This document shows positions 36-33,517 of a stretch of 54,341 nt of DNA, piece by piece. The DNA is from Endomicrobiaceae bacterium. GTDB taxonomy: Bacteria; Elusimicrobiota; Endomicrobiia; Endomicrobiales; Endomicrobiaceae. Made by a program: the position numbers and the translations under genes. The stretch covers positions 58,340 through 112,680 of the forward strand of contig JAQTSO010000001.1 of the NCBI GenBank assembly GCA_028711215.1, given 5' to 3'. Numbering within the stretch: position 1 is the first letter of the stretch; the number at the start of each line of letters is the position of its first letter. The notes beneath the pieces were generated by a model, which had not been told where the DNA came from, searched no databases, and saw nothing but the letters and a program-made list of their open reading frames with translations.

Positions 36-1427
36 GTAAGAACCGCGTGGGAACAAAACCACCCAAACAGTCTTAAACAATATCTTTAGATCCAGTCCGA
101 AACTCCAATGCTCTACATAAAAAACATCTAAATCTATTCTCTTTTCATCGCTTAATAATGATCTGCCTGAAACCTGCCAAAGTCCTGTTATTCCCGGCAG
201 TACTCGGAGTCTTTTTTTTGATTTACTGTAAAATGCTTCTTCTACCTGTCTAGCTTCCCATAATACCAAAGGTCTTGGTCCGACTAAACTCATATCCCCT
301 TTTAAAACATTAAATAACTGCGGAATTTCATCAATACTGTATTTTCTGATAAATGCACCCACTTTAGTTATTCTCGGGTCATTTTCTACTTTAAAAAATA
401 TTTCATCTTTTGATGTAAAATCTGATTTTACGTCATCTAATTTTTCATCAGCATTACAGACCATAGATCTGAATTTATAAAATTTGAAAGGTTTACCCCT
501 GTAACCTTGTCTTATCTGCGTGTAAATAATATTGCCTTTGCTTTCTAATTTGATAATAATAAATAACAACAGCAAAAAAGGAGACAACAATATCAATGCC
601 GATAATGAAATTATAATATCAAGTAATCTTTTAAAAAAATATTCTATCCCCGTTAAGGAATTTGAAATAAATTGAAAAACAGGAATTCCTAATGCGGAAT
701 CTACTAAAATTTCTCCTCTGCAAATTTGAATTTCGCTAGGTAAAACTTTAAAAATAACGTCATTGTATTCAGCCCAATCATAAAAAGATAAAATATCGGT
801 ATCAGACATAGCATGATCAACAATTATTAACTGTTTTATTTGTTTTCTTAATATTAAAGATTCTACTTTTTCCAAATCAGTTAATTTTAATATGAACGGG
901 AAATAAAAAACTTTATTTATAGGATTATTTTTAAATATATCTCTGTATTTTTTTACATTTTTGCCTATCATTAAAATATGATTTCTTTTATTGAGTAATT
1001 TAAAAACATATCCTATTGCTGTTTGAAATAATTGCCTTGAAAAAAACATAAAAACAATTAAATTAATCCATATGAAAACGAAAATAGATCTTGAGTAATT
1101 TCCTTTTACAAGGAATGAAAATACTATACAGCATAAAATAAATATTGAAACAACTTTAATCGTTCTTGCAAATTCATCCATCGGGGTGGCAGAGAAATGC
1201 TTGTAGTTTTTAGAAACATTAATGATTATTAGCCACAGAGGAATCATAAATTTCAAAGTAGATATATATTTATATGTAAACAGACTGTCTATAGGCTGAT
1301 AAATAAATAAACTTTCAAAAATAAAAAATCTCAGATAAAACGCAAACAGACACGACAACAGCAACATCATCGTATCTGAAACCAACAACAAAAAAAATAA
1401 AGAAACTTTCTTCTTGGAAATTCTCAT
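33..1427 (-). CDS. Polyprenyl-phosphate sugar-phosphate transferase (priming glycosyltransferase)
   Basis: Likely transfers a sugar phosphate from a nucleotide sugar to undecaprenyl phosphate at the inner membrane, the first step of exopolysaccharide or O-antigen synthesis. The 464-residue protein has about four N-terminal membrane segments (residues 10-130), a central soluble region, another hydrophobic segment near 270-295, and a C-terminal bacterial sugar transferase domain with the family motifs KFRSM, DEIPQLFNVLKGDMSLVGPRP and GITGLWQVSGRS. Size and order match WbaP/WcaJ-like enzymes. It is the last gene of the minus-strand operon that begins at 7499; the upstream GT2 ends 23 bp before its start. 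A TATAAT-like -10 (1437-1442, minus strand) lies 9 nt before the ATG, so an internal promoter is possible. The sugar specificity cannot be read. Confidence 0.9.
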   Translation of the reverse strand: MRISKKKVSLFFLLLVSDTMMLLLSCLFAFYLRFFIFESLFIYQPIDSLFTYKYISTLKFMIPLWLIIINVSKNYKHFSATPMDEFARTIKVVSIFILCCIVFSFLVKGNYSRSIFVFIWINLIVFMFFSRQLFQTAIGYVFKLLNKRNHILMIGKNVKKYRDIFKNNPINKVFYFPFILKLTDLEKVESLILRKQIKQLIIVDHAMSDTDILSFYDWAEYNDVIFKVLPSEIQICRGEILVDSALGIPVFQFISNSLTGIEYFFKRLLDIIISLSALILLSPFLLLLFIIIKLESKGNIIYTQIRQGYRGKPFKFYKFRSMVCNADEKLDDVKSDFTSKDEIFFKVENDPRITKVGAFIRKYSIDEIPQLFNVLKGDMSLVGPRPLVLWEARQVEEAFYSKSKKRLRVLPGITGLWQVSGRSLLSDEKRIDLDVFYVEHWSFGLDLKILFKTVWVVLFPRGSY

Positions 1428-15106: not shown

Positions 15107-17440
15107 TTATAAATCCTTCTTAATTTTCCTGAACATATATACCAAAAAATATGATACAGAAAAACCAATTATTGCTCCCGAGAAAACATCCGACGGGAAA
15201 TGACAGCCTGCATATATTCTTTCAAAAGCGGTTGCAAAAGCGAAAATGACGTATATATACCAGTATTTGCGTACAATCAGTATCATGGCAGTACCCAATG
15301 TAAAAGCAAATTGGGTGTGTCCTGACGGGAATGATCTGGCATAAAGTTTTTCCCAAAAAATATTTATATTGCCGTTGCCAAGGAATTCAAGAGGTCTTGC
15401 TCTTTCAAAAATATCCTTTAAAAAAGAATTAATAATAGTTGAGGTTATAATAATACACAACATTAATGCCAAAAGTATCCAAAAATTCTTTTTTTCATAT
15501 TTGAACATAATTAATATAGATAAAATAGACATAAAAATCAGAGGAACATTAATCCCTTTAGCATCAAAATAAGAAATTTTTGAAATTATAGAGTCAAAAA
15601 ATCTGTTCTTCATTTTAGAATTTACAAAGTTAAATATACTATGATCTATATCCAGTAACCCCTGATATATTGTTCGTTTATTGCCAACAATACTTGTATT
15701 GAATTCTACCGTTAGATTATTAGGATTAAAATTTTTACAAACAGTTAACCAGAATTTTTTTACAGTTTTATTATTTCTGTAAATTCCGATTTCAATCGGT
15801 TTTTCAAAAGTTTCAAAAGGATATGTATATTCATAATTAAAAAAATCAAAGATATTGCTTGTTACAAAAATAGCATCTCTGTTTTTTAAATTAGAGATAT
15901 CAGTTTGCCATAAATCATAAGCATCAATTTTTCCGCTGAAACAATAAACACGTATATCAGGTATAGAAAAGTATATTTGGCTTGCCAAAAAACTTTTATG
16001 AGTAAATACAAATGGTTTTTTTTCAGCCGGATAAGAATCGTAAATTTCATGTATTGAATCTGCAAGGTCTGACCATCCGTATAAATCATTTGTAGGATCA
16101 ACGATTTCTGCTGTAGGTATTCCAAAGTTAGTTATATTTCTTAAACAGCAACTGCGAATATCCGGAATATAAAAATAAGGTTTAGTTCCCCAATAACTTA
16201 CATGAGCAAAATTTACAGACCTTGTTTCAACGGGGCACATGTCGTACATTTCGTGTGCTATGCTTGCAAATCCCGGAAATCCGTATAAATCATTTGTAGG
16301 ATTAATAAACTTTGTTATTGGGATGCATATTTCAATTTTAAAAGGCTCTTTTTCCGGTACGAATTTTTCAATTGGAACAATTTTGTACATTGCCTGCAGA
16401 GGAACAAGTATATTCATTGCCATTGCTAAAGAACAGGCAACTATTATGTAATTTCTGACCCATTTTCTTTCCCAAAATTTTAATATTAAGTGTGCTACAT
16501 AGATTGTTGCAACCAAATATCCCATAGCAGGCCAATGCGGGAGTATTTCATTAAAAGTAGCTATTGATGTGAAAAATAATAAAACCGGCAGTGAAAATGA
16601 AGCTACAAATAAAGCATACTTGTCTTTTTTTACAAAACCTTCTTTTGCACAAACATATAATGCGTAAAAGTAAAATCCAAATAATAAAGGGGAAACAAAG
16701 CCGGCTTGTGCACCGATTGACCTAAAAAACAATGTTGGTGAGATTTGAGGTAATGTTTTTCCGAACCCGTGTTGTAATTGAAATCCGAAACTTGCCCAGT
16801 TGTTTTGGATATTCCACAAAATTACGGGGATAAAACATGCAAATGAGATCAGAATAGAGATATAAAGCTCTTTTCTTGCAAACCAGAATCTGTGATTTTT
16901 TGAAAACAATAAGAATATAATGATTGAAGGAAATAACATTACTGCAGTATATTTTGAAAGCAGAGCAAATCCTACCGAAAACCCTAAAAAATACCAATAT
17001 CTTTTTTGAGAAGTTTCTATTAATCTTATAAATAAATAAAAAGTAAGTATCCAAAACAGTGAAAGCGGGGAATCCGGTATGGTAATTACTGCTCCCAAAA
17101 ATGAAAAAACAGGAAGAATATTTAATAATATTACTGCAACAAAAGCAGTTTTTTCACTAAATAATTTTCTGGCCGAAATAAAAAATATCCAGGAAGTTAA
17201 AATGAATATAATTACGGAAGAAAATCTGACGCCAAAAGTATTTACACCGAATATTTCAGTAAATAATTTCACAATATAACCTATCATAGGGGGATGATCA
17301 TAATATGAAAGGTCTAAAAATTTAGAATATACCCAATAATGAGCCTCATCAACAGTTATTCCGACTTTACCTATAATTAAAAATCTGACTAAACTGGTTA
17401 ATGATGTCAATAACCAAAACAATTTATGATAATAAGTCAT
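15107..17440 (-). CDS. GT39/ArnT-like membrane glycosyltransferase fused to a PAP2 phosphatase
   Basis: A 777-residue fusion. Residues 1-350 form a polytopic dolichyl/undecaprenyl-phosphate-sugar transferase of the GT39 (PMT/ArnT) type, with VDEAHYWVYSKFLDLSYYDHPPMIGY near residues 25-50, where the acidic residue of the first loop is catalytic in the family. Residues 350-590 are an exported soluble region that contains a 68-residue tandem repeat (NPTNDLYG at about 380, DPTNDLYG at about 448). Residues 600-777 are a PAP2 domain with ERARP near 683, PSGH with H708, and HFPSD with H747. PAP2 enzymes dephosphorylate polyprenyl or lipid phosphates. The fusion may couple glycosyl transfer from a lipid carrier with carrier recycling; that is inference. 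The ATG at 17440 is preceded by AAGGGA; a longer frame to 17536 lacks support. Confidence 0.85.
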   Translation of the reverse strand: MTYYHKLFWLLTSLTSLVRFLIIGKVGITVDEAHYWVYSKFLDLSYYDHPPMIGYIVKLFTEIFGVNTFGVRFSSVIIFILTSWIFFISARKLFSEKTAFVAVILLNILPVFSFLGAVITIPDSPLSLFWILTFYLFIRLIETSQKRYWYFLGFSVGFALLSKYTAVMLFPSIIIFLLFSKNHRFWFARKELYISILISFACFIPVILWNIQNNWASFGFQLQHGFGKTLPQISPTLFFRSIGAQAGFVSPLLFGFYFYALYVCAKEGFVKKDKYALFVASFSLPVLLFFTSIATFNEILPHWPAMGYLVATIYVAHLILKFWERKWVRNYIIVACSLAMAMNILVPLQAMYKIVPIEKFVPEKEPFKIEICIPITKFINPTNDLYGFPGFASIAHEMYDMCPVETRSVNFAHVSYWGTKPYFYIPDIRSCCLRNITNFGIPTAEIVDPTNDLYGWSDLADSIHEIYDSYPAEKKPFVFTHKSFLASQIYFSIPDIRVYCFSGKIDAYDLWQTDISNLKNRDAIFVTSNIFDFFNYEYTYPFETFEKPIEIGIYRNNKTVKKFWLTVCKNFNPNNLTVEFNTSIVGNKRTIYQGLLDIDHSIFNFVNSKMKNRFFDSIISKISYFDAKGINVPLIFMSILSILIMFKYEKKNFWILLALMLCIIITSTIINSFLKDIFERARPLEFLGNGNINIFWEKLYARSFPSGHTQFAFTLGTAMILIVRKYWYIYVIFAFATAFERIYAGCHFPSDVFSGAIIGFSVSYFLVYMFRKIKKDL

Positions 17441-17533
17441 AAAATCCCTTGTAACAATTTTACATAAAGTATCAAATTTATTGATATTGTTCAAACAAAA
17501 AATAAAAAAGCAAAAAAGTGTCTTTTGAGTTTT

Positions 17534-17595
17534 CACAAATTTTTCACAAATTTTTATAAAAAACCATTGAAATAATAATGAGTTTATACTAAAAT
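17534..17595 (+). promoter_or_regulatory. Promoter of the giant-protein block with 11-bp tandem repeat
   Basis: TTGAAA at 17567-17572 and TAAAAT at 17590-17595 are separated by exactly 17 bp. Immediately upstream, CACAAATTTTT is repeated twice in tandem (17534-17544 and 17545-17555), a possible activator or UP-element site. The predicted start is near 17602; AGAGG at 17609-17613 serves the ATG at 17620. The rest of the 17441-17619 gap shows nothing else. Confidence 0.6.
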
Positions 17596-18154: not shown

Positions 18155-21100
18155 ATGAAAAGCAGAGTTGTTAAAATTCCATTTTTAAAAATTTGTTCGG
18201 TTGTTACTGCCATTTGTTTTTTGGTATCAACAATTGGAAATAATTTATATGCCTCTGTAATAACTGCGGATGTTTCTCAATGTAATAATATATTTGAAAG
18301 CATGAGTGTTATCAAACAGGAATATGGAAAGGTAACTGCTATACAAGACAGTTCAAGTGATGTTACTGTAGTAAATATACAGGACTTACATTGTCATGAA
18401 CAAACACAGAGAAATATAAGCGAAATTATAAAAACATTGGATAAAAATTATTCTCTAAAATCTATTTTTATAGAAGGCGGATACGGACAAATAGATGTAT
18501 CATGGGTAAATAAAGTAAAAGATGAAAAAATAAAAAATTTAATAACTGAAAAAATGCTTCAGGATGGTTATTTAACCGGTGCGGAATATTATGTAATTCA
18601 AAATTCCAAACACAATCTCTTGAAGGGAATAGAAGAACGGGATATCCATCAGTCAAATTTAGACAGACTCTCAAAAATAATGAGGAAACAGCCGGAATAT
18701 AATTCTGTTATGTCAAGAGTAAACAAAGAAATCGAAGTGTTGAGCAATATTTATTTAAATGAAAAAAACAAAAGATTTTCCAGAAAAATCAATGAGTACA
18801 GAAACGGAAAAACAGACACATTAAAGTTTTACAGACTATTAGAAAAATATGTAAAAAAAATACAGTCATCTCCGGATAAATACAATAATATCGTTTCAAT
18901 AAATTTAGAAGATTATCCTAATATTTCTAAATATCTTGATATTTCCGGCCAATCAAGAGATGCAAATCCGAGACAAGTCAGTATAGAAATGCAAACGCTG
19001 GTAAATGTTATTAAAAATAAAATACCTTACGTTTCATATAGAAAGCTTTTAGATGTAACAAATAATTTTAACGATACAGAAAAATTGGTGGAGTTTCTGG
19101 CAAAATTTTGCGACCAGTATAATATAGACTTGTCAAAAGATTTCAAAGAATTAAATAAATTTTTTACTGCAAACAGATTAAATCAGAGATTAAATCCGAT
19201 TGAACTGGTAAACGAAGAAAGAAAATTAATAGAACAAATCAGAATGGCATTGTCATATGATAATACCGAATATGAAATTTCCTATATAAATGACTTTGCA
19301 AAATATTTTGATGATTATCTGACTTATTCACTAACATCATCTGACTGGAAATATGTTAAACAGGATTTTGAAAAATTTAGATTATTTTACACAAAATATG
19401 CAGTTGTTGACAGGATTAATGAAATATCTTCAGACATAGATTTTATAAATAAATATTATGATACTAACGATATCAGAAATGATATTTTTATTTCCAATGT
19501 GTTAAATAATGAAAATCCTCAACAGAATTTGAATCCTTTAAGGACATCAGAGGAAATATTAAAACAATCAAAGGAAGTTGTAGTTGTAATTACAGGCGGT
19601 TATCACAGTGAAGATTTAAAATCAATGTTTGCCGACAGAAAAGTTAATGATATTGTTATAACTCCAAATGTAGTCGGTGATATAAAGAATGCCAATAAAA
19701 GATACGACAGTATTATAAGAAAACAAACATCAATACAATCAAATGCATTGGCATTCAGGATTGCCTCATGTCTGTCAGATGAAAATCAAAAAAATTTAAT
19801 GGTTAAAGTTGCAGTTGAGATTTTAGGCAAAGATAATATCGTACAAATACAACAGTTATTAGGCAAAGATATTGATATTTCCAAAATTGAAGATATTGAA
19901 ATTGATGAACAAAAGAAATCAGATGTTCAAAATTTAATACAAACAACAGTTAATTCTTTAGTTGATGCCTTGCCACAAAAAGCAGGGCAGAATATATTCA
20001 ATCCAGATATTGACAATATTTTAACAGAAATGAGTCTTAAACTTTACGATATGGGATTTTATTTTGAAAATGGGGCTGTGTATGAAATAGATTCATCCGA
20101 ATACAAAGATAAGGATTTGTTCGGTATTCCGGTAGAAGTATATTCAAGAATGTTTGCAAGTCTGCAAAAAGCAATGCTTAAGACAGAACAAATAAGGGAT
20201 GGCATATCATCCAAACTCCCAACAGATAAAAATATAAAAATTCAATGGAGCAGTTTTCCTGACAAAGCATTTGTTTTAATTCAGGAAATTTTATTTAGGG
20301 CATTTCCGGCATTAATTTTTATTTTTAATCCGGTTATAGGTATTCCTCTTTTTGTTATATCGCAAATGGTTTCTTTAAGCTTGGAAATTTTTATACAGTG
20401 GAAAGCATATCAAAAATTAGACGTTAAAAATCCTGATTTTTTTAAAAAATACGTAAATAAACTGCCTTTGATAACAATTTTATTAACCGCTCCTTATGCC
20501 GTCGCACTTGCAACCAATATTTTATATCTGCCTATAGCACTTGTTTTAACAATCGTTATACATTATCTTTTTGTGAAAAAGTTTTCAGTAAATAAAACAT
20601 TTAATAATAAAAGTGTTTCCCCGTTCTTGTTAGCCCCGTCTATGGGTATTTTCTGGAGGGCTACAGGAACTATAGAACGTTATAGAACTGCATTAAAGAA
20701 TAGAAACGATAAGAAAGCCGGTTCTGAAAAATATAAATTAAAAAAAGACGTCAGCTACGAAACCATATTGAGAGATCAGAACAACAGCACTGCTCTTGAA
20801 ACTATAATCAAAAATGAACAACTGGATGTTAAATACAGGCTGTTTGCTTTAATGTATCTAAAGACAAACAATCTTGATATTTATAAGGGAATTACAGAAA
20901 ACGTCATTGATAAGGAAATTACAGAAAAGATTAAGAAAGATTTTAAAAATTCTCTGCAAAAAAATAAAATTAAAAATAATTTTGATTTGCAGGCTAATCT
21001 TACCGGAATATTTCTTATTTTAGATGATATTTTGCACGAACAGCTTCATGGTAATTCATACAGGATTTATGAAGAAATACAAGATGCCGTAATTGTAAGA

Positions 21101-24100
21101 TACGGCATGGCGAGTGCGGTTGCCAATGATGATTTTATTTTCGGAGCGGTAGATTATGAAACATTGGCTCACGAACTTGGACATAGAATTCTTAAATATT
21201 CTTCAATGGAAGGTGATTTAACTTTAGGAGAATTATTTGCGGAAACAGTTTCAAATCTTATAGCGCGGGAGTTTAACATCATTCCTTCCAAAAATAGTGC
21301 GCAACTGTACGGATTATTTGATCCTAATGTTAATTACATCCGCGTTTTTCAGGAAGAGCATGAAGCAGCAGACGGGTTTTTAAATTTAATAAAGCAATCA
21401 ACAGAAAAAAATCCAAATTGGTTAGTGCTTATAGATACTATCATAAATTATGGCTATTATAGAGAAGGGGTTAAACGTCCGTCCGCACAGGGAGCGATTT
21501 TAAAGGATATATTGGTTGGATACGAAGAAAGATTAAAACAAACAGATGAATCCGATATAGTTGATTTTGCAAAGAAAAAAACGGCTAAAACCGGCATAGT
21601 AATGGATATTCTTAAAGATATCAAAGAAAAAAATCCTTATCAATACGATAATATTTTGAAAAAAATCAGGTCAAAGGCAAAGATTCAAAAATCTTATCAG
21701 CAAGAAAATATTGATAAGACTAAATTTTGGCAAAGCAAATCAAAAGTTGAAGAACTGTTCAATATTATTGAGGCAATATTTTCTTCAGAAAAACTTTATG
21801 ATTTTGAAATTATAGCGGCAATATTCAGCAGTCCTGATAATATAGATTCTGTTTTAAATGATATGTTTGACGTAATTTTTAAAGATACAGATTATTCTAT
21901 GTATGATTTTGAAAATTTATACAAAATAAAATCGCTGATGGCACATGACAGAACGTATACGTCCAAAGAAGAGTTAGAACAATATCTTAAACCTATTATA
22001 GATTTGATTACGTCTTCAAGGCGGACAGAACCAACGAAAGATGATTTTATTAATTTGAAAAAAAACAAAAGATATACGTTGAAAAAGAATTTCCGTTTAA
22101 TGATAGTTGAAAATTTTAATAAACTCGGTCTGCCTGAATTAGTAGATACGCTTTTTCCGCAGAAAACGTATGATACAAATAAAACTGGTTCTAAATTATC
22201 AATATTTGATGCATTGAAAAGCAAAAATTCAATATTTGCTTTTTTGGCAAAAACAGCGCCGGTTTGGGAGGAGATAGTATTCAGGGCGATCCCTTCGCTC
22301 ATTACAATATTTAATCCGTTTGTTGGGATACCGTTATTTGCAGTATCACAGATAGCATTTTTATTTTCGCATACAATAGTTAAATGGTTGACTTACAGGG
22401 ATTCGGCAGGCAACAGATTAAATTTTGCAAGTATTTTGAAAAATGATTTGAAAAATCTTTCGCTTCCCGCACTTACAGTATCAATCCCTTATATAATTTC
22501 AATGATTGTCGGTTCGGTGTTACCGATTGCAGTAATAACGTCTATAGCCATACATTATTTGCACAATAAAATAAATCCTCAAAATCCTATGGAATTATTT
22601 TCTTCGGATAATATGACTCCTGACAATATAGAGCAGATTATGCAGCGTTATGCAAAGATGCTCGGGTCTGACAGATATGTCAAAGAAAAAATAAAAATAA
22701 TTGATAAAAATTTAGTTTACCGTTTGGTTCAAACATCGTCGGATTCGCATCAAACGCTGGTAAATATAATAACTAAAATGCAGTATGTGGATCCAATGCT
22801 CATAAACCATATGGAATCTTATGAATATGTTTCTGATATTTTTGAAGCAAGCGATGCTTTGTTGCAATATATAGGAGGCATGGGTTTTGATTCCTATAAT
22901 TTCAATCTTTTCTTTAAGTTAAGAAAAAGTGCAGGAATCAAGAATGAAGAATTTTCAAATATTTGGTTAGCAAATATTATACGTGATGATATCAAAATGC
23001 AGTATTTAGACAGTGTTACGTTAATGGGATTGGAAACAATTTTAAAAATATTCGGCCCCGAAAGAAATCTTGATACAATCCAATATTTGTTTAACAAACT
23101 GTGTTATGCAGACAGTTTTGATTTTAATAAATTTTTTAAGTTAGTAAAAGAAAATGATTTAACAAAAAATCAGAATAAACTCAAATTATTACAAACAAGT
23201 TTTGATAACGGCTTTGAGGACAACGCTGATGAAATACTCGGTTTTTCCGATGTTGAAACAGCGGCTGTAATTGAAGTGTTGGATGACAATGATAATAAAA
23301 CAGCATTGCTGAATTTCAGATTATTTTCCGAATTAAAAGAAATGCTGGGCGTGCAACCGGATGATAAGAATAATATACGTTTCTTGGCAAAATACTGTTT
23401 CAATAAAGGAAATATTGTTGAAACCGGAAAACTTACGAATAAGTTGGACGAAAATATTTTTGTGCAAAATTTAAAAATAATATTAAAAAATGAAAATAAG
23501 GAATATATTTTGACATCTCTTCTGGCAGACTTGACTGTTGCCAATATCTATTTAAGTGACAGTCAGGCGGAACAGATTATGCGGTTGTTGGAAGAAATGA
23601 CTAAGATGGATATTAAAAATCTTGCCGTAAGCAATGAAAATCTGGCACTTAAAGTATTTCTAAGTCCCGCTTTTGTCACTGTTTTTAACAGTCAGGTTTC
23701 TAAAGAAAATTTCAAGAATATTGACAATATGATTCAAAGGTACAGAAGGGCAATAGCCGTCGGCATATTTATGAACCAACTTTTGAACGGCAGAGAGGAA
23801 CTTTTAACCCCGGAAAATTTTGATAAAATTGTAAAGATATCAACGGATGCATATTTTTCAATACTTGAACAATGGTTTAATAAAAAACTTGCAGACAAAG
23901 ATTCTGTTGTAACTGCAATATTTCATGATGAAAGCGCCGATATAGTTTTTAAAGATATACAGGGAGACAGATTTAATCCTGAAATTTTAAAGAAATTTTT
24001 AAATAAAATCGGAATTGATACAGATACTAATGAAAATGTAAAAATTTTGCAGAGATCAAAAGATCCCGGCGTAAAGTTTAAAATACTTGACAGCATAATA

Positions 24101-27100
24101 AATTCTCCAAAAAACGGTAAAAAGAGCTTGTTCTGGTTTGACGGACACGGGTCAAAAAACGGTTTTTCAATAACCGCAAGCGAACATATATATTTTGAAG
24201 AAATTGCCGATGCGTTGCGTGTTGCGTATACAAACGGTGTAGATTTAAAAAACCTTACACTCGTGTTTAATTCATGCCATTCAGGTGATTTCAAAGATAA
24301 AATTCTTACTATGCTTGAAGAAAGAAGCGTTAAAGATTCTCCGGTAATAATTACCATAGCCGGTCATGAAACCGAATTGGGGTATACCGACATTGTAGAA
24401 CATGATGGCGATAAACTGTTGGTGTCAAACCTTGAATTCAGTATTTTTAATTTATTTGAAAGTTCTTCAAACGCAGATTCAGAAAATAATAATTTATTGT
24501 TAGGCGATTTTATATTGGCACAAAGCGATGTTAATTATTCAAATCCTACAATATCAATACCTCTTACGGAGGATGTAAGAAAAATTATTGAAAAGACTCT
24601 GTCTCAAATAGACAACGTCAACAAACAAGAGACGGATAAGTCCGAAGAATCATCGCTTTTGGTAAGAACCGGAATAGGAATGTCTATAGAAGCTTCTGAA
24701 TCAGTACAGGCAACAATAAAAATGCCTTCAGCTTCTTTGGAATTATCAATATTTGGTGCTTTAAAGAATAAATCAAAAGTATTTTCATTTTTGGCAAAGA
24801 CGGCACCTGTCTGGGAAGAGATATTATTCAGAACCATTCCTTCGGCGGTTACAATATTTAATCCGGTTGTGGGTATATCATTATTTGTTGTGTCACAGAT
24901 AGTATTTTTATTTTCCCATACAATAGTAAAATGGCTGGTTTACAAAGATACGGCAGGCAATAGATTGAATTTTGCAAGTATTTTGAAAGATGATTTTAAA
25001 AATCTGTCACTTCCTACTCTTGCAGTATCAATCCCATATGTTTTAACAATGATAATCAATCCTGTATTTTGGCCGATGGCAGCCGTATCCTCTATAATAA
25101 TACATTCCCTGTTCAATGATAAATTATCCATATTAGGTTATTTTAAAAATATAAAATTAAAAGACAATTTTGATCTTAAGCTTCCGATACAAGCATTAAA
25201 TATAAAAGCAGGAGCCGAAATATTTGTAACGTATCTTGCAAACGACAAACTTATTATTTCAAGAAATAAAGCCGAACTTGATAAATTTTGCGAAGAATAT
25301 ACCGCAAACAAACCGGCACATATTACAAGCAGAATATATGCTAATACGGTAAAAATTATCGTCAAAAATAATGGAACCGTAAACGTAAAACAATTATATA
25401 AAAATAAATTAGAAAGATATCCTCTTACACAGGAACAAAAAAATAATATTACGCTTTTTTACAGTCAGGTTCCGATAAAATCGGAAGAAAAAACCGAAAC
25501 AATTTCTGATAAGCCGGTAAAAGACAACAGTGAAGAAAATATTAAAGATGCATTGATAGATAAAATAGGACCGGTCAATGTAATTGATTTTGATTTTTCT
25601 CAATTTATAACCGGTGAAAAACAAAATGCCGATATTAAAGAAATCCGTGAATATGTGAAATCAATAATTATCGGAAAAGATCTAAGAAATAATTTTATTT
25701 CCGTAACATTTTCTAATTTGACCGATAACGTCGGACTTGATGAAAATAAAATTAAAATTGCCGGCACAATAATATCTGTTTTATCAGATGAATTTAATGA
25801 AATTTTTGCAGATAGCCCGGCAGGTGCTCCGGGAGTTACATATTTTGAAGATATGATAGAAAATGCTTTTGTACACGGCAATAACTTATCATTAAATAAA
25901 AAAATATTTATTTATTTCGGCAATGATAGAGATGTGCTTGTTATTAATTCAAATACTCCTCAGAATAAAACAGTTGAAGCCTTGGCACTTGCATCAAAAT
26001 TGTATTTATACGGATTCGGCTCCGGTATAAAATCCGCAGAAATAGTGAATAATGCCAGGTATGCTATTACTGATTTGATTATGCCCGATAAAACAACAAA
26101 AGAGTTATACATAGCGTATATATCGTTTAAAAAATATCAGAAATTAAAAGCAACATTGCTGGACAGGATATTAAAAAAGATTAATTTGTCCGCCATATGG
26201 CACACAATTGCGACAAGAAATATTGAACGCCAGTATTCTTATACAGTACTTCCGGTTTTAAAAGAAGGAGAATCTGTTATTGCGACAAATTTTGTAAAGG
26301 AAGGTGCGGAATACAGCGATGACTGGATAGAATGCAAGATAAGCAAAAAAGACGGTAAATATATAATAAGTAACATCAATAAAAGAGAAAATAAATTAAA
26401 GTGGGGAATTCCGTTAGAATGGCAGATTCATCTTGATGACAAACTTGAAATAACGGAAGAAAACGGTAAATTTTACGTATGTTCAAACTATAGCGATATA
26501 CGTATTTTGGAACCTCAAAATGAACAAGGTCTTGAAACTGACACTACTGATTATTCAACTCCGCAACAGCCACCTGAATCATTAACTCCTCGTGATATTT
26601 CAACACAACAAGACATTACTCGGAATAACCGTGAATTTGAAAGTCTTTTTAGACTTGTTCACAGAGACAGTATTGCAAAGCCTGTTATAGGAGATTCAGA
26701 GAATTATGGTTACAGATTAAGACTCCAAAAGGCAGGTTTTGAATTGGCAGAAAAGCTGGATTTAAATGAGATGGAAGAATTGTATAAAGACGACGAAGAT
26801 AAATTAAGTTTAATAGGATATTTGAAAATATTAAAGTTAAAAAGAACAGGCGATAATCAAGGTCTAAAATCAATAGTTTATAACGGTCGTTTAAACATTA
26901 AATACAGATTAATGGCATATATGTATTTGAGAGGTAACGGGGTTAACGATTTTAATGATGGAATACTTGGAATAATGAAAGCAAATTTTCTGATAGAATT
27001 ACAGCTTAACAGTTTTAAGATAGATAATAATTTTGATTTAAGCATGCTTGGAGCCGGCATTTTGCTTATTTTAAGCCAATATTTGAGAGACAGTAAATAT

Positions 27101-30100
27101 CTTGATGAACAACAGGAAAGAAATCTTTACGACAATATATCGTATTCTACATTTGTTGAAAAAAACGAGTTTGAAAATACGTCGGCAAATTCAGGAATGT
27201 TTTTTACATCCCCCGACCCGCTGACTATGGCCCATGAAATAGGACATCGTGTATTATTGTTTTATACCGATTCAAGTAAAGGGGTTTCATATTCTACGAT
27301 ACATGAGATATTTGCAAATGTCATATCAGCTGTTTTTGCTGAAAAAGCAGGAATTGGCAGTAAATACTACGAAGATGCATTATATGAATTATTTAATGAA
27401 AAAATGCAATACGATTATGTGCTGCAAGAAGAACACAGAGCATCAAGAGGATTGTTGTATGCTATTACGGAAATTGCAAAACAAATGGGCAAAACTGCAA
27501 AATTTGAAATTTTGGCAGATGCAGTTATCAATTTAGTAAAATCACAAAAAGTTTTGCCAAAGAGACAGTCTGATACAATTAAAGATATTGTATATGAATA
27601 TATGAATATGTTGAGGTTCAAAGATAATTATACCCAGGATGAAATTGCGAAATTTGAAGGATTATTAAAAGAGGAATCTTGGAAGAGTAAAGTCCTTGAA
27701 CTGTTTATGAATTTGAGAAGTTCAAGCGGGACAAGATGGGATTATTACGGGAAAATATACAAAAGAATTATGGATGGAATGAGAGCGTTTGTGGTACAAC
27801 CGGAATCTTACAGATACGGCATGTTGCAAATTGACTACCGTGATGATTTAGTCGTTATAAATAATATTATTATGTCTCAACCCGATAAAATCAATATTGT
27901 TTTACAGATAGTAAAGGATGAATTGAGCCAGGATGATTATTTGTTAAGAACTCAAATTGCAAAATTAATATTTGCCGATCTTATAATATCACTGCCTCAG
28001 ATGAAACAATTAACAAAATATCAATTGGACAGATTGATTCAGGAGATCATAGATAAATTTTTCTCTGATAAAATGGATTATAAAGCATCTGAGATTGATT
28101 ATAATAAAATCAGGATATATGCATTAGGGGAATATTCATTTTTTAAAACAGTTTTGCCGCGTAATTTTGGAGAACGCAACACAACTAAAAAAGATTTATT
28201 CGGAAAGAATTTCTATGAGCAAAAAACATCATATGACGAGAGTTACAAATATGCCGAATCACTTCCTTCATTTGTGCCGTCAATAGATACATTCTTTATG
28301 CTTGCCGGCATTTCCGGGCTTTACAGAAAACTTTTTGATTTTATAGTTAAAAAAATTGCAGGATTAAAACAAAGACCTAAATTCAGCCAAAGTGTTGAAA
28401 ATTACTTAAGTATAGTCAAAAATAATGTGGAAAATAAATTTCTTTTAAAGATCATTTATAATGACAGAGCATCCGTTAAATACAGGTTGTTTGCATTAAT
28501 GAATTTGAGAAACAGGGGATATGACATTAGTGATAAGTCGGTTGTAAATGACATTAAGAGAGAATTTGCCAAAGCAATAAATGCAAACAGTATGCCTGTA
28601 AACAACAATTTTGATTTGAGATCGGTTCTTGCAGGTGTATATCTTTTGTTGGAAAATTTTTCAAGAGAATATGTAGATTCAAAACAAGAAATTGAAATTT
28701 ATAAATCAATATCAAAAGCAGTCGTACTTAGAAGAGGAAAAGAGTCCATAGGTGCCAGAGCAAATATGACTTTTGTATCGCTAAATCCTTTGACTATGGC
28801 ACATGAACTCGGACACAAAATACTTGCTTATACTTCCGAAAGTTCGCTTAAAGATATAACAATTCATGAATTATTTGCAGAGATAACGGCAAATTTATTT
28901 GCAAGAATCACAGGGGTGAAGGAAAAAGAATATAAGGATGTTTTGTACGGATTATTTGATAATTCCGTAAATTATGACGATGTCTTTCAGGATGAACATA
29001 AAGCGTCAACGGGTTTTATAGAACTTTTAAGAATGGTAAGCTCACAAGCGGGTAAAAATCTCAAATGGGATATTTTGGCCAATGCGGTTATTTCATATAC
29101 AAAGAATTCATCCGATCACATTGCAGAAAATAATCAAGGAAAAAATTTAAAAAATATATTTATCGAATATCTTACCCAGCTTGATAAAAATAGGCAGTAT
29201 ACAAGAAGTGATTTGAATTATATGTTTAGTGTTGCACAGAGAGCGACAAAGGGTGAAACAGTTGTAATGGAAATACTTGAAGACATCAAAAAAACAAATG
29301 CTGAACAGTATGAAAATATTTTAAAACGTCTTCAGAGTAAAATAAAATTGCAGAAATCATATATGAAGGGACTTATCCCCAGACTTTTATACAGCAAATC
29401 AAAAATAAAAGAAATTTCGGATATATTTAAGGAATTTTTGGGAATCAAATCTGAATATAAGGATGATGCGGATATTATAACAAAACTGATATTCAGCCAG
29501 CCTAAGAGAATTAAAGATATTTTGAGAATAATTATTAACCAAATTCTAAGTAAAAGAGAATTTTCCAAATATGATTTTGAAAACGTAATCAGAATGGAAT
29601 TTATGTTAAATACAGACAAAATATATTCTTCAAAAAAAGAACTGGACAGTGATATACGTGATATTTTAAACAATATTGTAAGAAACGTCAGTAATGATGC
29701 TTTTCACAGAAACTATAATGTTTTTGACCTCAGTGACTATAAGTATGCAAAAAAATATATTGAAAGAAATAAAGCAGGAACATTGCAGACAAAAAAGACA
29801 ATTGAAATTCTTAATCGTTTGGGAAGTAAAATTTACAATCAGAGAAGTCAGGCTGAAAATTTCAAATATAGCATATTCGGTATTGCAACAGGAGTTGTAT
29901 TGGAAACATTTTCATTTTGGATGCCTAGTTTTATTAAACAACACGAAAATCCTACAAAAACAATGATAATCACAACATGGGTAATAAGGATTCTATCAAT
30001 AGGGGTGGCAGTGGCAGGCGGTTTTATGTTTGTTCCTGCAGTAGTTCCGATAGTTTTGATAGCAACAGAATGGATAACACATTTTGTATATAATCTTTTT

Positions 30101-31621
30101 GAAATAAAGAAAATTGATAAAAATATTTCCGTTAAATTTGAGTCTGTAGATACATTTAATTCAATGCAAAATTTAAGTACGGATTCTGCAATATCTGTAT
30201 TATTGGTAAAAGATATAAAGAATATGGATCCGGATAAACTTATAAATACAGGTTTAAAAGTAAATGGTGAAACGATTTGGCAAATAGATAGAGAAGGAGT
30301 TGTTTCTTTTGGAGCATCTAATACTAATATACAGGATTTAGCTATGGTTCTAAACGGAAGCAGAATTTTAGAAAGACAATTAAGAAAAGTATTAAAATTA
30401 AAAAATATGAATTTAAATGTGGAAAGTTCAGCGGTTATTGATGAAAAATCAGAAGAAATGTATTTTCAAAATACAATTGCAGTTGTTAACAATAATAAAT
30501 ATGTGCAATCAATGCTCAAAGCCTTTAAATCAATAGCATTCATGTATTCTCAAAAAACAATGATATCTTTGGAAGGAGTATCAAATAATAAACTATATCA
30601 ATCATTAACAAACGGGAAGGTTAGAAAAATTATAACTCCTGAACAATTTGAATATATAAAAAGTTTAATTGAAAAAGACAATAAAAATGTATCAGAAGAA
30701 ATACTTAATTTGAGACAACAGGGAATAGAAATATATGTAAAAGAAAATGAATTAACCGATAAGTATAAAGAATACGGGATAATCGGATTGTTGCTTAATA
30801 ATGAAATTTATGATTATTATACAGCTGAAAAAACAGAGATAGAAACCGTGGATGCTCGGATAACACTGCAAGAACTGGAAAGAAAGTTAATCAATTCGGA
30901 AAAACCACTGTTGATAGATATAGCTTCATTACAAAATATTTTTAAATCTACAAGAAATATAGTCGGAGCATATAGCGGGTTAGAGGCATTGATCGGCAAT
31001 ATAAAAATTAAATTCGGATTTAAAAATATTCAGGCAAAAGATATGGAAAATTTTGCATATGCTATAGATATGAATGATATTCCGGCCGTATCTGACGAAG
31101 ATATCAATGAAATGGTTGTTGCGGATATTGTTGGGTTTACGGGTGTATTACAATTGGACGACAGCAATATTATCAGTATAATTTTAAGGGATACAGGGAT
31201 CAATGAAAATAACAAGAAATTATTCTTAAATATTATAAAAGAGAAAGTTTTGCTTAAGAATGCTCAACAAAATAAGGAAAGAGAAGTTAATTTGAAATAC
31301 TTGAAATATGGTTTAAAAGATAAAAAATTAGAAATTTTGCTTGGTAAAGCACTTTGGTTAAGAATACAACTTGCCGGTAACCAAAGTATTGATGGGCAAA
31401 AAAATATAGATGATAATTTGAGCAATTTGACTCCTTTAGAAATAATGAAAAAAATTACAGAATTATCCCAACAGGCTTTTGACAGCAGAGATTCTAAGGC
31501 AATAGATACCATTATAGAATTAATTATGACATGTGCTGAAGAATATAAAAATGACGATATGGTACCGGTGGCAACAAATGATTTATTACGTGAATATAAA
31601 AGCATGTTGGCAGCAGCTTAA
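18155..31621 (+). CDS. Giant exported multi-protease polyprotein (4488 residues)
   Basis: The N-terminus has a signal peptide or anchor (residues 1-35). Domains in order follow. (a) An EreA/ChaN/TIKI-like domain, 60-540: IQDLH with H79, E107, GGYH with H484. (b) A CPBP-like membrane module, 690-810, degenerate (Q710-E711...R715; His replaced by E744). (c) Metallopeptidase module 1: H1006-E-x-x-H1010, with E1026 or E1030 as a possible third ligand. (d) CPBP module 2: E1372, E1373, R1377, H1406, H1467. (e) A caspase-like module: H1998 in DGHG and C2041 in NSCHSG. (f) CPBP module 3: E2221, E2222, R2226, H2255, H2317. (g) A GHKL ATP-binding module: E2569-N2570, H2574-G-N, G2620-F-G-S-G. (h) Metallopeptidase modules 2 and 3: H3027...H3031 and H3550...H3554. 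(i) Two or three membrane segments near 3905-3985, and a C-terminal region of unknown fold. The frame is unbroken. The start is preceded by TTTTGGGG. Known: these motifs define protease and ATPase families. Inferred: they act together, perhaps with self-processing. Confidence 0.85.
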   Translation: MKSRVVKIPFLKICSVVTAICFLVSTIGNNLYASVITADVSQCNNIFESMSVIKQEYGKVTAIQDSSSDVTVVNIQDLHCHEQTQRNISEIIKTLDKNYSLKSIFIEGGYGQIDVSWVNKVKDEKIKNLITEKMLQDGYLTGAEYYVIQNSKHNLLKGIEERDIHQSNLDRLSKIMRKQPEYNSVMSRVNKEIEVLSNIYLNEKNKRFSRKINEYRNGKTDTLKFYRLLEKYVKKIQSSPDKYNNIVSINLEDYPNISKYLDISGQSRDANPRQVSIEMQTLVNVIKNKIPYVSYRKLLDVTNNFNDTEKLVEFLAKFCDQYNIDLSKDFKELNKFFTANRLNQRLNPIELVNEERKLIEQIRMALSYDNTEYEISYINDFAKYFDDYLTYSLTSSDWKYVKQDFEKFRLFYTKYAVVDRINEISSDIDFINKYYDTNDIRNDIFISNVLNNENPQQNLNPLRTSEEILKQSKEVVVVITGGYHSEDLKSMFADRKVNDIVITPNVVGDIKNANKRYDSIIRKQTSIQSNALAFRIASCLSDENQKNLMVKVAVEILGKDNIVQIQQLLGKDIDISKIEDIEIDEQKKSDVQNLIQTTVNSLVDALPQKAGQNIFNPDIDNILTEMSLKLYDMGFYFENGAVYEIDSSEYKDKDLFGIPVEVYSRMFASLQKAMLKTEQIRDGISSKLPTDKNIKIQWSSFPDKAFVLIQEILFRAFPALIFIFNPVIGIPLFVISQMVSLSLEIFIQWKAYQKLDVKNPDFFKKYVNKLPLITILLTAPYAVALATNILYLPIALVLTIVIHYLFVKKFSVNKTFNNKSVSPFLLAPSMGIFWRATGTIERYRTALKNRNDKKAGSEKYKLKKDVSYETILRDQNNSTALETIIKNEQLDVKYRLFALMYLKTNNLDIYKGITENVIDKEITEKIKKDFKNSLQKNKIKNNFDLQANLTGIFLILDDILHEQLHGNSYRIYEEIQDAVIVRYGMASAVANDDFIFGAVDYETLAHELGHRILKYSSMEGDLTLGELFAETVSNLIAREFNIIPSKNSAQLYGLFDPNVNYIRVFQEEHEAADGFLNLIKQSTEKNPNWLVLIDTIINYGYYREGVKRPSAQGAILKDILVGYEERLKQTDESDIVDFAKKKTAKTGIVMDILKDIKEKNPYQYDNILKKIRSKAKIQKSYQQENIDKTKFWQSKSKVEELFNIIEAIFSSEKLYDFEIIAAIFSSPDNIDSVLNDMFDVIFKDTDYSMYDFENLYKIKSLMAHDRTYTSKEELEQYLKPIIDLITSSRRTEPTKDDFINLKKNKRYTLKKNFRLMIVENFNKLGLPELVDTLFPQKTYDTNKTGSKLSIFDALKSKNSIFAFLAKTAPVWEEIVFRAIPSLITIFNPFVGIPLFAVSQIAFLFSHTIVKWLTYRDSAGNRLNFASILKNDLKNLSLPALTVSIPYIISMIVGSVLPIAVITSIAIHYLHNKINPQNPMELFSSDNMTPDNIEQIMQRYAKMLGSDRYVKEKIKIIDKNLVYRLVQTSSDSHQTLVNIITKMQYVDPMLINHMESYEYVSDIFEASDALLQYIGGMGFDSYNFNLFFKLRKSAGIKNEEFSNIWLANIIRDDIKMQYLDSVTLMGLETILKIFGPERNLDTIQYLFNKLCYADSFDFNKFFKLVKENDLTKNQNKLKLLQTSFDNGFEDNADEILGFSDVETAAVIEVLDDNDNKTALLNFRLFSELKEMLGVQPDDKNNIRFLAKYCFNKGNIVETGKLTNKLDENIFVQNLKIILKNENKEYILTSLLADLTVANIYLSDSQAEQIMRLLEEMTKMDIKNLAVSNENLALKVFLSPAFVTVFNSQVSKENFKNIDNMIQRYRRAIAVGIFMNQLLNGREELLTPENFDKIVKISTDAYFSILEQWFNKKLADKDSVVTAIFHDESADIVFKDIQGDRFNPEILKKFLNKIGIDTDTNENVKILQRSKDPGVKFKILDSIINSPKNGKKSLFWFDGHGSKNGFSITASEHIYFEEIADALRVAYTNGVDLKNLTLVFNSCHSGDFKDKILTMLEERSVKDSPVIITIAGHETELGYTDIVEHDGDKLLVSNLEFSIFNLFESSSNADSENNNLLLGDFILAQSDVNYSNPTISIPLTEDVRKIIEKTLSQIDNVNKQETDKSEESSLLVRTGIGMSIEASESVQATIKMPSASLELSIFGALKNKSKVFSFLAKTAPVWEEILFRTIPSAVTIFNPVVGISLFVVSQIVFLFSHTIVKWLVYKDTAGNRLNFASILKDDFKNLSLPTLAVSIPYVLTMIINPVFWPMAAVSSIIIHSLFNDKLSILGYFKNIKLKDNFDLKLPIQALNIKAGAEIFVTYLANDKLIISRNKAELDKFCEEYTANKPAHITSRIYANTVKIIVKNNGTVNVKQLYKNKLERYPLTQEQKNNITLFYSQVPIKSEEKTETISDKPVKDNSEENIKDALIDKIGPVNVIDFDFSQFITGEKQNADIKEIREYVKSIIIGKDLRNNFISVTFSNLTDNVGLDENKIKIAGTIISVLSDEFNEIFADSPAGAPGVTYFEDMIENAFVHGNNLSLNKKIFIYFGNDRDVLVINSNTPQNKTVEALALASKLYLYGFGSGIKSAEIVNNARYAITDLIMPDKTTKELYIAYISFKKYQKLKATLLDRILKKINLSAIWHTIATRNIERQYSYTVLPVLKEGESVIATNFVKEGAEYSDDWIECKISKKDGKYIISNINKRENKLKWGIPLEWQIHLDDKLEITEENGKFYVCSNYSDIRILEPQNEQGLETDTTDYSTPQQPPESLTPRDISTQQDITRNNREFESLFRLVHRDSIAKPVIGDSENYGYRLRLQKAGFELAEKLDLNEMEELYKDDEDKLSLIGYLKILKLKRTGDNQGLKSIVYNGRLNIKYRLMAYMYLRGNGVNDFNDGILGIMKANFLIELQLNSFKIDNNFDLSMLGAGILLILSQYLRDSKYLDEQQERNLYDNISYSTFVEKNEFENTSANSGMFFTSPDPLTMAHEIGHRVLLFYTDSSKGVSYSTIHEIFANVISAVFAEKAGIGSKYYEDALYELFNEKMQYDYVLQEEHRASRGLLYAITEIAKQMGKTAKFEILADAVINLVKSQKVLPKRQSDTIKDIVYEYMNMLRFKDNYTQDEIAKFEGLLKEESWKSKVLELFMNLRSSSGTRWDYYGKIYKRIMDGMRAFVVQPESYRYGMLQIDYRDDLVVINNIIMSQPDKINIVLQIVKDELSQDDYLLRTQIAKLIFADLIISLPQMKQLTKYQLDRLIQEIIDKFFSDKMDYKASEIDYNKIRIYALGEYSFFKTVLPRNFGERNTTKKDLFGKNFYEQKTSYDESYKYAESLPSFVPSIDTFFMLAGISGLYRKLFDFIVKKIAGLKQRPKFSQSVENYLSIVKNNVENKFLLKIIYNDRASVKYRLFALMNLRNRGYDISDKSVVNDIKREFAKAINANSMPVNNNFDLRSVLAGVYLLLENFSREYVDSKQEIEIYKSISKAVVLRRGKESIGARANMTFVSLNPLTMAHELGHKILAYTSESSLKDITIHELFAEITANLFARITGVKEKEYKDVLYGLFDNSVNYDDVFQDEHKASTGFIELLRMVSSQAGKNLKWDILANAVISYTKNSSDHIAENNQGKNLKNIFIEYLTQLDKNRQYTRSDLNYMFSVAQRATKGETVVMEILEDIKKTNAEQYENILKRLQSKIKLQKSYMKGLIPRLLYSKSKIKEISDIFKEFLGIKSEYKDDADIITKLIFSQPKRIKDILRIIINQILSKREFSKYDFENVIRMEFMLNTDKIYSSKKELDSDIRDILNNIVRNVSNDAFHRNYNVFDLSDYKYAKKYIERNKAGTLQTKKTIEILNRLGSKIYNQRSQAENFKYSIFGIATGVVLETFSFWMPSFIKQHENPTKTMIITTWVIRILSIGVAVAGGFMFVPAVVPIVLIATEWITHFVYNLFEIKKIDKNISVKFESVDTFNSMQNLSTDSAISVLLVKDIKNMDPDKLINTGLKVNGETIWQIDREGVVSFGASNTNIQDLAMVLNGSRILERQLRKVLKLKNMNLNVESSAVIDEKSEEMYFQNTIAVVNNNKYVQSMLKAFKSIAFMYSQKTMISLEGVSNNKLYQSLTNGKVRKIITPEQFEYIKSLIEKDNKNVSEEILNLRQQGIEIYVKENELTDKYKEYGIIGLLLNNEIYDYYTAEKTEIETVDARITLQELERKLINSEKPLLIDIASLQNIFKSTRNIVGAYSGLEALIGNIKIKFGFKNIQAKDMENFAYAIDMNDIPAVSDEDINEMVVADIVGFTGVLQLDDSNIISIILRDTGINENNKKLFLNIIKEKVLLKNAQQNKEREVNLKYLKYGLKDKKLEILLGKALWLRIQLAGNQSIDGQKNIDDNLSNLTPLEIMKKITELSQQAFDSRDSKAIDTIIELIMTCAEEYKNDDMVPVATNDLLREYKSMLAAA
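20200..20620 (+). repeat. CPBP-like module, copy 1 (degenerate), in the giant gene
   Basis: Encodes residues about 683-822. The sequence around QEILFRAFP, FNPVIGIPLFVISQ and IHYLF aligns with copies 2 and 3. The first Glu of EExxxR is Gln710, the His of FxxxH is Glu744 (and its Phe is Ser740), and the last residue of HxxxN is Val807. Confidence 0.7.
20760..21700 (+). repeat. HExxH metallopeptidase module, copy 1, in the giant gene
   Basis: Encodes residues about 870-1180. The copy shares with the others a VKYRLFALMYL helix, a NNFDLxxxLxGIxLIL block, AHELGH at 1005-1010 and an acidic helix GELFAE after it, then a GLFDPNVNY...EEHEA block. Confidence 0.75.
22199..22570 (+). repeat. CPBP module, copy 2 (intact motifs), in the giant gene
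   Basis: Encodes residues about 1349-1472 with EEIVFR (E1372, E1373, R1377), FLFSH (H1406) and HYLHN (H1467...N1471), the three CPBP motifs EExxxR, FxxxH and HxxxN. It is roughly three-quarters identical to copy 3. Confidence 0.8.
24746..25120 (+). repeat. CPBP module, copy 3 (intact motifs), in the giant gene
   Basis: Encodes residues about 2198-2322 with EEILFR (E2221, E2222, R2226), FLFSH (H2255) and HSLFN (H2317...N2321). The close match to copy 2 indicates a fairly recent duplication inside the gene. Confidence 0.8.
26810..27760 (+). repeat. HExxH metallopeptidase module, copy 2, in the giant gene
   Basis: Encodes residues about 2886-3202. It repeats the order of copy 1: IKYRLMAYMYL helix, NNFDLSMLGAGILLIL, PLTMAHEIGH (H3027, E3028, H3031), IHEIFANV (E3051), then a LFNEKMQYDYVLQEEHRAS block. 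Confidence 0.75.
28400..29380 (+). repeat. HExxH metallopeptidase module, copy 3, in the giant gene
   Basis: Encodes residues about 3416-3742: VKYRLFALMNL, NNFDLRSVLAGVYLLL, PLTMAHELGH (H3550, E3551, H3554), IHELFAEI (E3572) and LFDNSVNYDDVFQDEHKAS. It is closer to copy 2 than to copy 1 around the zinc site. Confidence 0.75.
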
Positions 31622-33480: not shown

Positions 33481-33517
33481 AATATTTGCCGGCAGTCTTT
33501 CATTTTGGGGGCGACAT

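Follow-up and report, generated by a model that had tools for sequence, protein, structure and literature searches.

In clan CD cysteine peptidases, the catalytic His lies at the C-terminal end of strand 3 and the Cys at that of strand 4, and human legumain, or asparaginyl endopeptidase (MEROPS family C13), holds Asn in a zwitterionic S1 pocket of Arg44, His45, Ser216, and Asp231 (PMC4357240). Clan CD domains inside large secreted bacterial proteins are already known, and the internal caspase-like domains of such proteins have been proposed to be auto-processing peptidases (PMC3482391). The EExxxR and HxxxN motifs characterize glutamic intramembrane proteases, and in Myxococcus a CPBP protease sorts surface proteins (PMC11980579). 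Here we describe a domain that combines features of these systems, in a 54,341-nucleotide stretch of an Endomicrobiaceae bacterium genome (GCA_028711215.1, contig JAQTSO010000001.1, positions 58,340–112,680; hereafter, the window). Residues 1889–2152 of a giant open reading frame (ORF) in the window form a legumain-like clan CD peptidase domain, as judged from sequence and predicted structure, and a CPBP-like membrane module follows it.

The giant ORF is uninterrupted and encodes 4488 amino acids (18155–31621, plus strand) in DNA of 30% G+C. The 2.2-Mb host assembly belongs to the ruminant and anaerobic-digester clade of Endomicrobiaceae within Elusimicrobiota (PMC11257099), and its closest relative, “Candidatus Proruminimicrobium quisquiliarum” SV1-B7.2 of the same genus, is 79% identical across the peptidase domain. 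The original prediction, made from the DNA letters, placed a caspase-like module with a His-Cys dyad at 24050–24430 and proposed that it could trigger processing or a death-like response. Translation of this interval bore out the motifs: KKSLFWFDGHGSKNGF holds H1998 (WFDGHG) and LTLVFNSCHSGDF holds C2041 (FNSCHSGD), 43 residues apart. Both motifs lie inside the proposed interval, but the peptidase domain is larger (~23819–24610). As also proposed, its chain is multi-protease-like, and the domain has a CPBP-like module on either side (~22217–22567 and 24770–25126). The motif pair [hydrophobic]xxHG-(39..46)-[SAC]Cx[SG] had a single occurrence in the ORF, and 2000 shuffles that preserved its composition gave none. 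The His, the next Gly, and the Cys were already invariant in a first 15-row alignment (26–79% identity), and all three were unchanged in the 33 complete copies collected from Elusimicrobiota giant ORFs, many of which are just 20–35% identical to the window copy. A chance motif is ruled out by the shuffles and by this invariance, and the possible loss of either dyad residue in homologues was thereby checked, with both retained throughout.

An AlphaFold2 model of the peptidase region, built on a 13-sequence alignment of the window and fetched loci, adopted a clan CD fold with a mean predicted local distance difference test (pLDDT) score of 82.3 and a predicted template modeling (pTM) score of 0.83. 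Its strands (34–39, 78–82, 107–112, 150–155, 180–183, and 248–250, with helices between them) follow the caspase/legumain sheet order. Model residues His114 and Cys157, which are H1998 and C2041, are each two residues beyond a strand, 107–112 (strand 3) and 150–155 (strand 4), respectively, as the clan rule for the dyad has it (PMC4357240). The model matched PDB structures with Z scores of 14–17 over 184–202 residues, consistent with the six-stranded sheet and five main helices of the clan. The first two kinds of match returned by Foldseek were caspase-11 (E = 1.2e-5) and legumain (E = 2.4e-5). VIA-align ranked human legumain first (Z 17.0, 197 residues aligned, root-mean-square deviation 3.4), followed by the glycosylphosphatidylinositol (GPI) transamidase PIG-K (Z 16.4), metacaspase (15.3), procaspase-6 (14.1), and Raptor (14.0). 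The modeled fold, the PDB matches, and the invariant dyad bear out the predicted fit to clan CD, and together the sequence and the model support a real clan CD peptidase domain with a His/Cys dyad. Established knowledge of the clan makes it likely that the domain acts as a cysteine peptidase. Non-enzymes use the same fold, as Raptor illustrates, and the domain could be a catalytically dead one, retained as a structural or binding module; the constancy of the His, Gly, and Cys in such divergent copies makes this improbable.

The family assignment within the clan is less sharp. C13 was the best Pfam family for 9 of the 15 homologues in which it was sought (best E = 3.9e-6), and some homologous giants pass its cut-off (e.g., G330:C38, 25.0 bits), whereas the window copy falls below it (18.3 vs 22.8 bits). 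Among PDB sequences, the family profile matched the GPI-anchor transamidase best, at E = 3.2e-5, and the two dyad residues were in register. PF00656 (C14) gave no match in the host genome or in the Pfam scan, which rules out an ordinary C14 metacaspase. The window domain shares the clan CD fold and dyad with the Asp-specific caspases and the Arg/Lys-specific metacaspases. Compared profile to profile with hhalign, it matched Elusimicrobiota proteins that are positive for PF00656 at a probability of 91% (E = 9e-7), its H and C aligning with theirs, against 2.4% for an unrelated control. However, its structural scores against caspases and metacaspases are lower, and the C14 proteins of the phylum are small stand-alone or Ank/WD40-linked proteins, unlike the window domain. 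The term “caspase-like” is therefore right at the clan level but not in the strict C14 sense, as the best sequence and fold relatives are in C13; “legumain/GPI-transamidase-like” is closer. Because the window copy is sub-threshold for C13 and invisible to C14, we label it “legumain-like within clan CD” and file it under neither family.

Legumain and the window domain are alike in fold, element order, His-Cys dyad, and similar dyad spacing, but the structural alignment has only 12–13% identity, the Asn-pocket residues of legumain were not recognised in the window domain, and the domain sits within a giant chain, with a membrane module after it where legumain has its C-terminal prodomain. PIG-K/Gpi8 has its dyad in register and membrane segments nearby, as here, but it belongs to a multi-subunit complex of eukaryotes and uses a lipid acceptor, and neither was seen for the window domain. 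In the fashion of GPI transamidase, the window domain could be a transpeptidase or sorting enzyme that cleaves beside a hydrophobic segment and ligates the new terminus to an acceptor in the envelope; the CPBP module would be its sorting partner. The profile match to GPI transamidase, the high rank of PIG-K among the structural matches, the adjoining membrane segments, and the sorting role of the Myxococcus protease (PMC11980579) are in keeping with this. However, no acceptor, sorting tag, or substrate family was identified, and similarity to C13 is by itself no guide to whether an enzyme is a ligase or a hydrolase; we consider such a function unlikely.

The second feature of the domain is its partner. 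Of 32 distinct copies of the peptidase, 25 are followed after 37–92 residues by the start of a CPBP-like module, whereas random placement (2000 runs) put such a module within 100 residues downstream in 1.4 copies on average and in 7 at most. FxxxH is, like EExxxR and HxxxN, a motif of glutamic intramembrane proteases. Many of the partner modules keep all three, which are present in at least 90% of 14 aligned EE-type CPBP copies and in modules 2 and 3 of the window giant, where module 3 is the conserved partner. As in the CPBP/type II CAAX glutamic proteases (Rce1, myxosortase), the motifs lie within hydrophobic segments, but the partner module is shorter, is fused behind a cysteine peptidase, is degenerate in several copies, and stays below the Pfam cut-off (best PF02517 score 13.5 vs 22.4 bits). 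The EE-less modules are probably inactive as proteases. Compared with the sister species, the peptidase and CPBP 3 have 84 and 83% amino acid identity, respectively, against 67% for the whole ORF, and their ratios of nonsynonymous to synonymous substitution rates (dN/dS), read as relative values, were the lowest of the segments measured (0.083 and 0.075; whole ORF, 0.173). By this sequence comparison, the pair is under strong constraint.

Relatives of the peptidase were counted within 340 Elusimicrobiota genomes, and a wider contig scan used a single narrow pattern. They occurred in 23 of the 340 genomes, at up to seven copies per genome, and were concentrated in the host genus and Ruminimicrobiellum. 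The strong matches sit in open frames of ~1000 to 9000 amino acids, and the host genome has a second copy in an ORF of 2992 amino acids; the weakest matches were for the most part ordinary C14 proteins, of which some have ankyrin or WD40 repeats. In locus L091 (18000–36266 of G329:C97), an open frame of ~8000 amino acids contains three peptidase copies, and loci L036, L085, and L095 have two each. The presence of several copies per frame in these loci indicates that the cassette duplicates within the chain. In the fetched DNA, a head domain of 480 residues was found on 21 of 27 peptidase-carrying ORFs; locus ends truncate some of the others. The sequence data point to a lineage-specific peptidase family whose members, together with a downstream CPBP-type module, move and duplicate as one cassette inside head-bearing giants of Endomicrobiaceae and allied Elusimicrobiota. 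We did not find a legumain-like branch coupled to a CPBP-like module in head-domain giants described in the open-access literature that was searched, with subscription papers outside that search.

Caspase-like auto-processing domains, as described for large secreted proteins and polymorphic toxins of bacteria (PMC3482391), are a precedent for this arrangement: they too are internal clan CD domains of very large proteins, which here are probably exported. In contrast, the link of the window family to C80 is a single match (E = 0.12), and a pairing with CPBP was not found described for these domains. Polymorphic toxins have a constant N-terminus, a variable C-terminal toxin tip, and an adjacent immunity gene; in the giants, the N-terminal head is shared, and eight of them end in a common C-terminal domain rather than a swapped toxin tip.

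We put the probability at roughly one half that residues 1889–2152 are an active, membrane-tethered legumain-like cysteine peptidase, with His1998 and Cys2041 as its dyad, that cuts its own chain or partner proteins, the CPBP module being a second cutter. In this scheme, the N-terminal signal-like segment would export the giant chain, which is probably exported to judge from its sequence, and the CPBP hairpins would thread it through the inner membrane. The legumain-like domain, kept beside the membrane, would cut linkers of its own or sister chains and release soluble modules, and the adjacent CPBP module could then cut inside the membrane, as a built-in site-1/site-2 pair. Processing of the polyprotein by the peptidase, which the original prediction had suggested, is plausible. 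The stronger proposal that the two enzymes, covalently joined, form a self-contained two-step cassette that processes an entire class of giant secreted proteins, by maturing parts of them or setting these parts free, is doubtful at present. Several points weigh against the scheme. The CPBP assignment is based on three motifs and on position, with the Rce1-like Pfam score far under the cut-off, and several partner modules have lost EE and keep only the later motifs. No conserved Arg-His pair was seen at helix 1 in the 13-sequence alignment. Finally, dS was ~1.0–1.7, close to saturation, and the dN/dS ratios are therefore relative only.

An active peptidase could instead be aimed at foreign or host proteins (those of rumen ciliates or neighboring bacteria, dietary protein, or surface protein), and the giants would then be secreted machines of predation, attachment, or digestion. 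Several further protease-like domains occur in the same chain, the copy number is high in some genomes, and modules turn over quickly between sister genomes, including a 665-residue stretch found only in the window giant. Ruminimicrobiellum is suspected to live with ciliates (PMC11257099), and giant ORFs elsewhere have been proposed as attachment or predation factors (PMC10066038). However, the peptidase mostly lies inside the chain, coupled to a module that resembles a membrane protease, and its near-constancy across sister species is unlike an arms-race effector, so we regard this as a possible but clearly less probable explanation than a peptidase that processes its own chain or partners.

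The suggested death-like response found no support: the chain is apparently exported, and neither a death fold nor a STAND context turned up. A cytoplasmic caspase-type regulator of bacterial cell death would agree with a weak alignment to the PADLOC “caspase” model (E = 2.5e-4), but the chain has a signal-peptide-like start and many hydrophobic segments, no STAND, TIR, CHAT, or effector partner was seen, and the C14 profile was silent on the host genome. In the phage, viral, and plasmid collections, no relatives of the peptidase were detected at the sensitivities used. We therefore consider such a regulator very improbable. An anti-phage caspase system, suggested by that single PADLOC alignment without supporting context, was rejected, as was a phage, viral, or plasmid origin, given the lack of relatives in those collections at these sensitivities.

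The features of the giant ORF are summarized in Table 1. The same-genus relative has an intact ORF of 3863 amino acids that aligns with the window giant over 3814 residues at 67% identity, and the length difference is mainly the 665-residue stretch (ORF residues 682–1346; 20198–22192), which comprises CPBP 1 and metalloprotease 1, has no counterpart in the sister genome, and looks like a recent gain, duplication, or loss of modules. The three AHELGH ... HE(L/I)FAE domains are related to one another, metalloprotease-like, and unrecognised by Pfam; a profile of them gives weak matches to fragilysin and bacillolysin at the HExxH site. The MIENAFVHGN region resembles a histidine-kinase-type ATPase, with a weak Pfam match in one homologue only (E = 0.04). 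Other weak Pfam matches, such as Pertus-S5-tox and DUF4049, were sub-threshold and were taken as chance.

Table 1. Features of the giant ORF in window coordinates.
Feature	Position	Strand	Remarks
Giant ORF, 4488 amino acids	18155..31621	+	N-terminal signal-peptide-like segment KSRVVKIPFLKICSVVTAICFLVST
N-terminal head domain (IQDLHCH...EGGYG...LTGAEYY...GGYHS)	18281..19729	+	Common to many giant paralogues; window copy below every Pfam cut-off
CPBP-like module 1 (QExxxR, first Glu lost)	20252..20581	+	
AHELGH metalloprotease-like domain 1	20753..21631	+	Within the 665-residue stretch missing from the sister genome
CPBP-like module 2 (WEEIVFR ... FLFSH ... HYLHN)	22217..22567	+	
Clan CD (legumain/caspase-like) cysteine peptidase domain, residues 1889–2152, fold core 1916–2138	23819..24610	+	
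Codon of predicted catalytic His1998	24146..24148	+	
Codon of predicted catalytic Cys2041	24275..24277	+	
CPBP-like module 3 (WEEILFR ... FLFSH ... HSLFN), conserved partner	24770..25126	+	Starts 52 residues past the peptidase domain
Region with HATPase-like motif (MIENAFVHGN), weak	25592..26194	+	
AHEIGH metalloprotease-like domain 2	26810..27724	+	
AHELGH metalloprotease-like domain 3	28400..29296	+	
Degenerate CPBP-like membrane module 4 (without EE; FxxxH and HxxxN kept)	29852..30091	+	
C-terminal domain	30194..31558	+	Common to 8 giants; fastest evolving segment measured, dN/dS 0.24

The head domain extends well beyond the peptidase-carrying ORFs. It was found in 35 of the 60 relatives, at up to 25 per genome and 13 in the host genome, on ORFs of ~500–12000 amino acids; giants with this head make up a large protein family. 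Each of the two window giants starts with it (18281–19729 and ~33611–34909; IQDLHCH/IQDLHAN ... EGG ... G-LTGAEYY ... GGFHS), and it belongs to no Pfam family. The second giant (33386–40654, 2422 amino acids) also has an HD-like stretch (HEHGLGHCLDV) and a calcineurin-like phosphoesterase domain (PF00149, E = 6.8e-6). A ChaN/haem-binding-like identity of the head, hinted at by its motifs, was unsupported (hhalign probability 0.3%). Giant ORFs of ~900–5400 amino acids in G066, G067, G218, G221, and G224 match the ChaN/haem-binding profile PF04187 chiefly over its later part, and there may be another shared domain for the giants of these other Elusimicrobiota families. Upstream of the first giant, the ORF at 15107–17536 (minus strand) appears by eye to join a PMT/ArnT-type membrane glycosyltransferase to a PAP2-type phosphatase (KDIFERARP ... 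SFPSGH ... CHFPSDVFSG).

Few bacteria are as rich in huge proteins as Elusimicrobiota, and a published survey assigned no functional category to any of the huge proteins of this phylum (PMC11573180). The present family adds a lineage-specific legumain-like branch that Pfam mostly misses or sees weakly, the window copy being unrecognised. If the two-step cassette were true, the giant chains would be genuine bacterial polyproteins. An invariant active site in about thirty giants, together with the recurring fusion to a membrane-protease-like module, makes it a concrete question whether they cut themselves at the membrane or cut others, and provides a first catalytic handle on one class of huge bacterial proteins.

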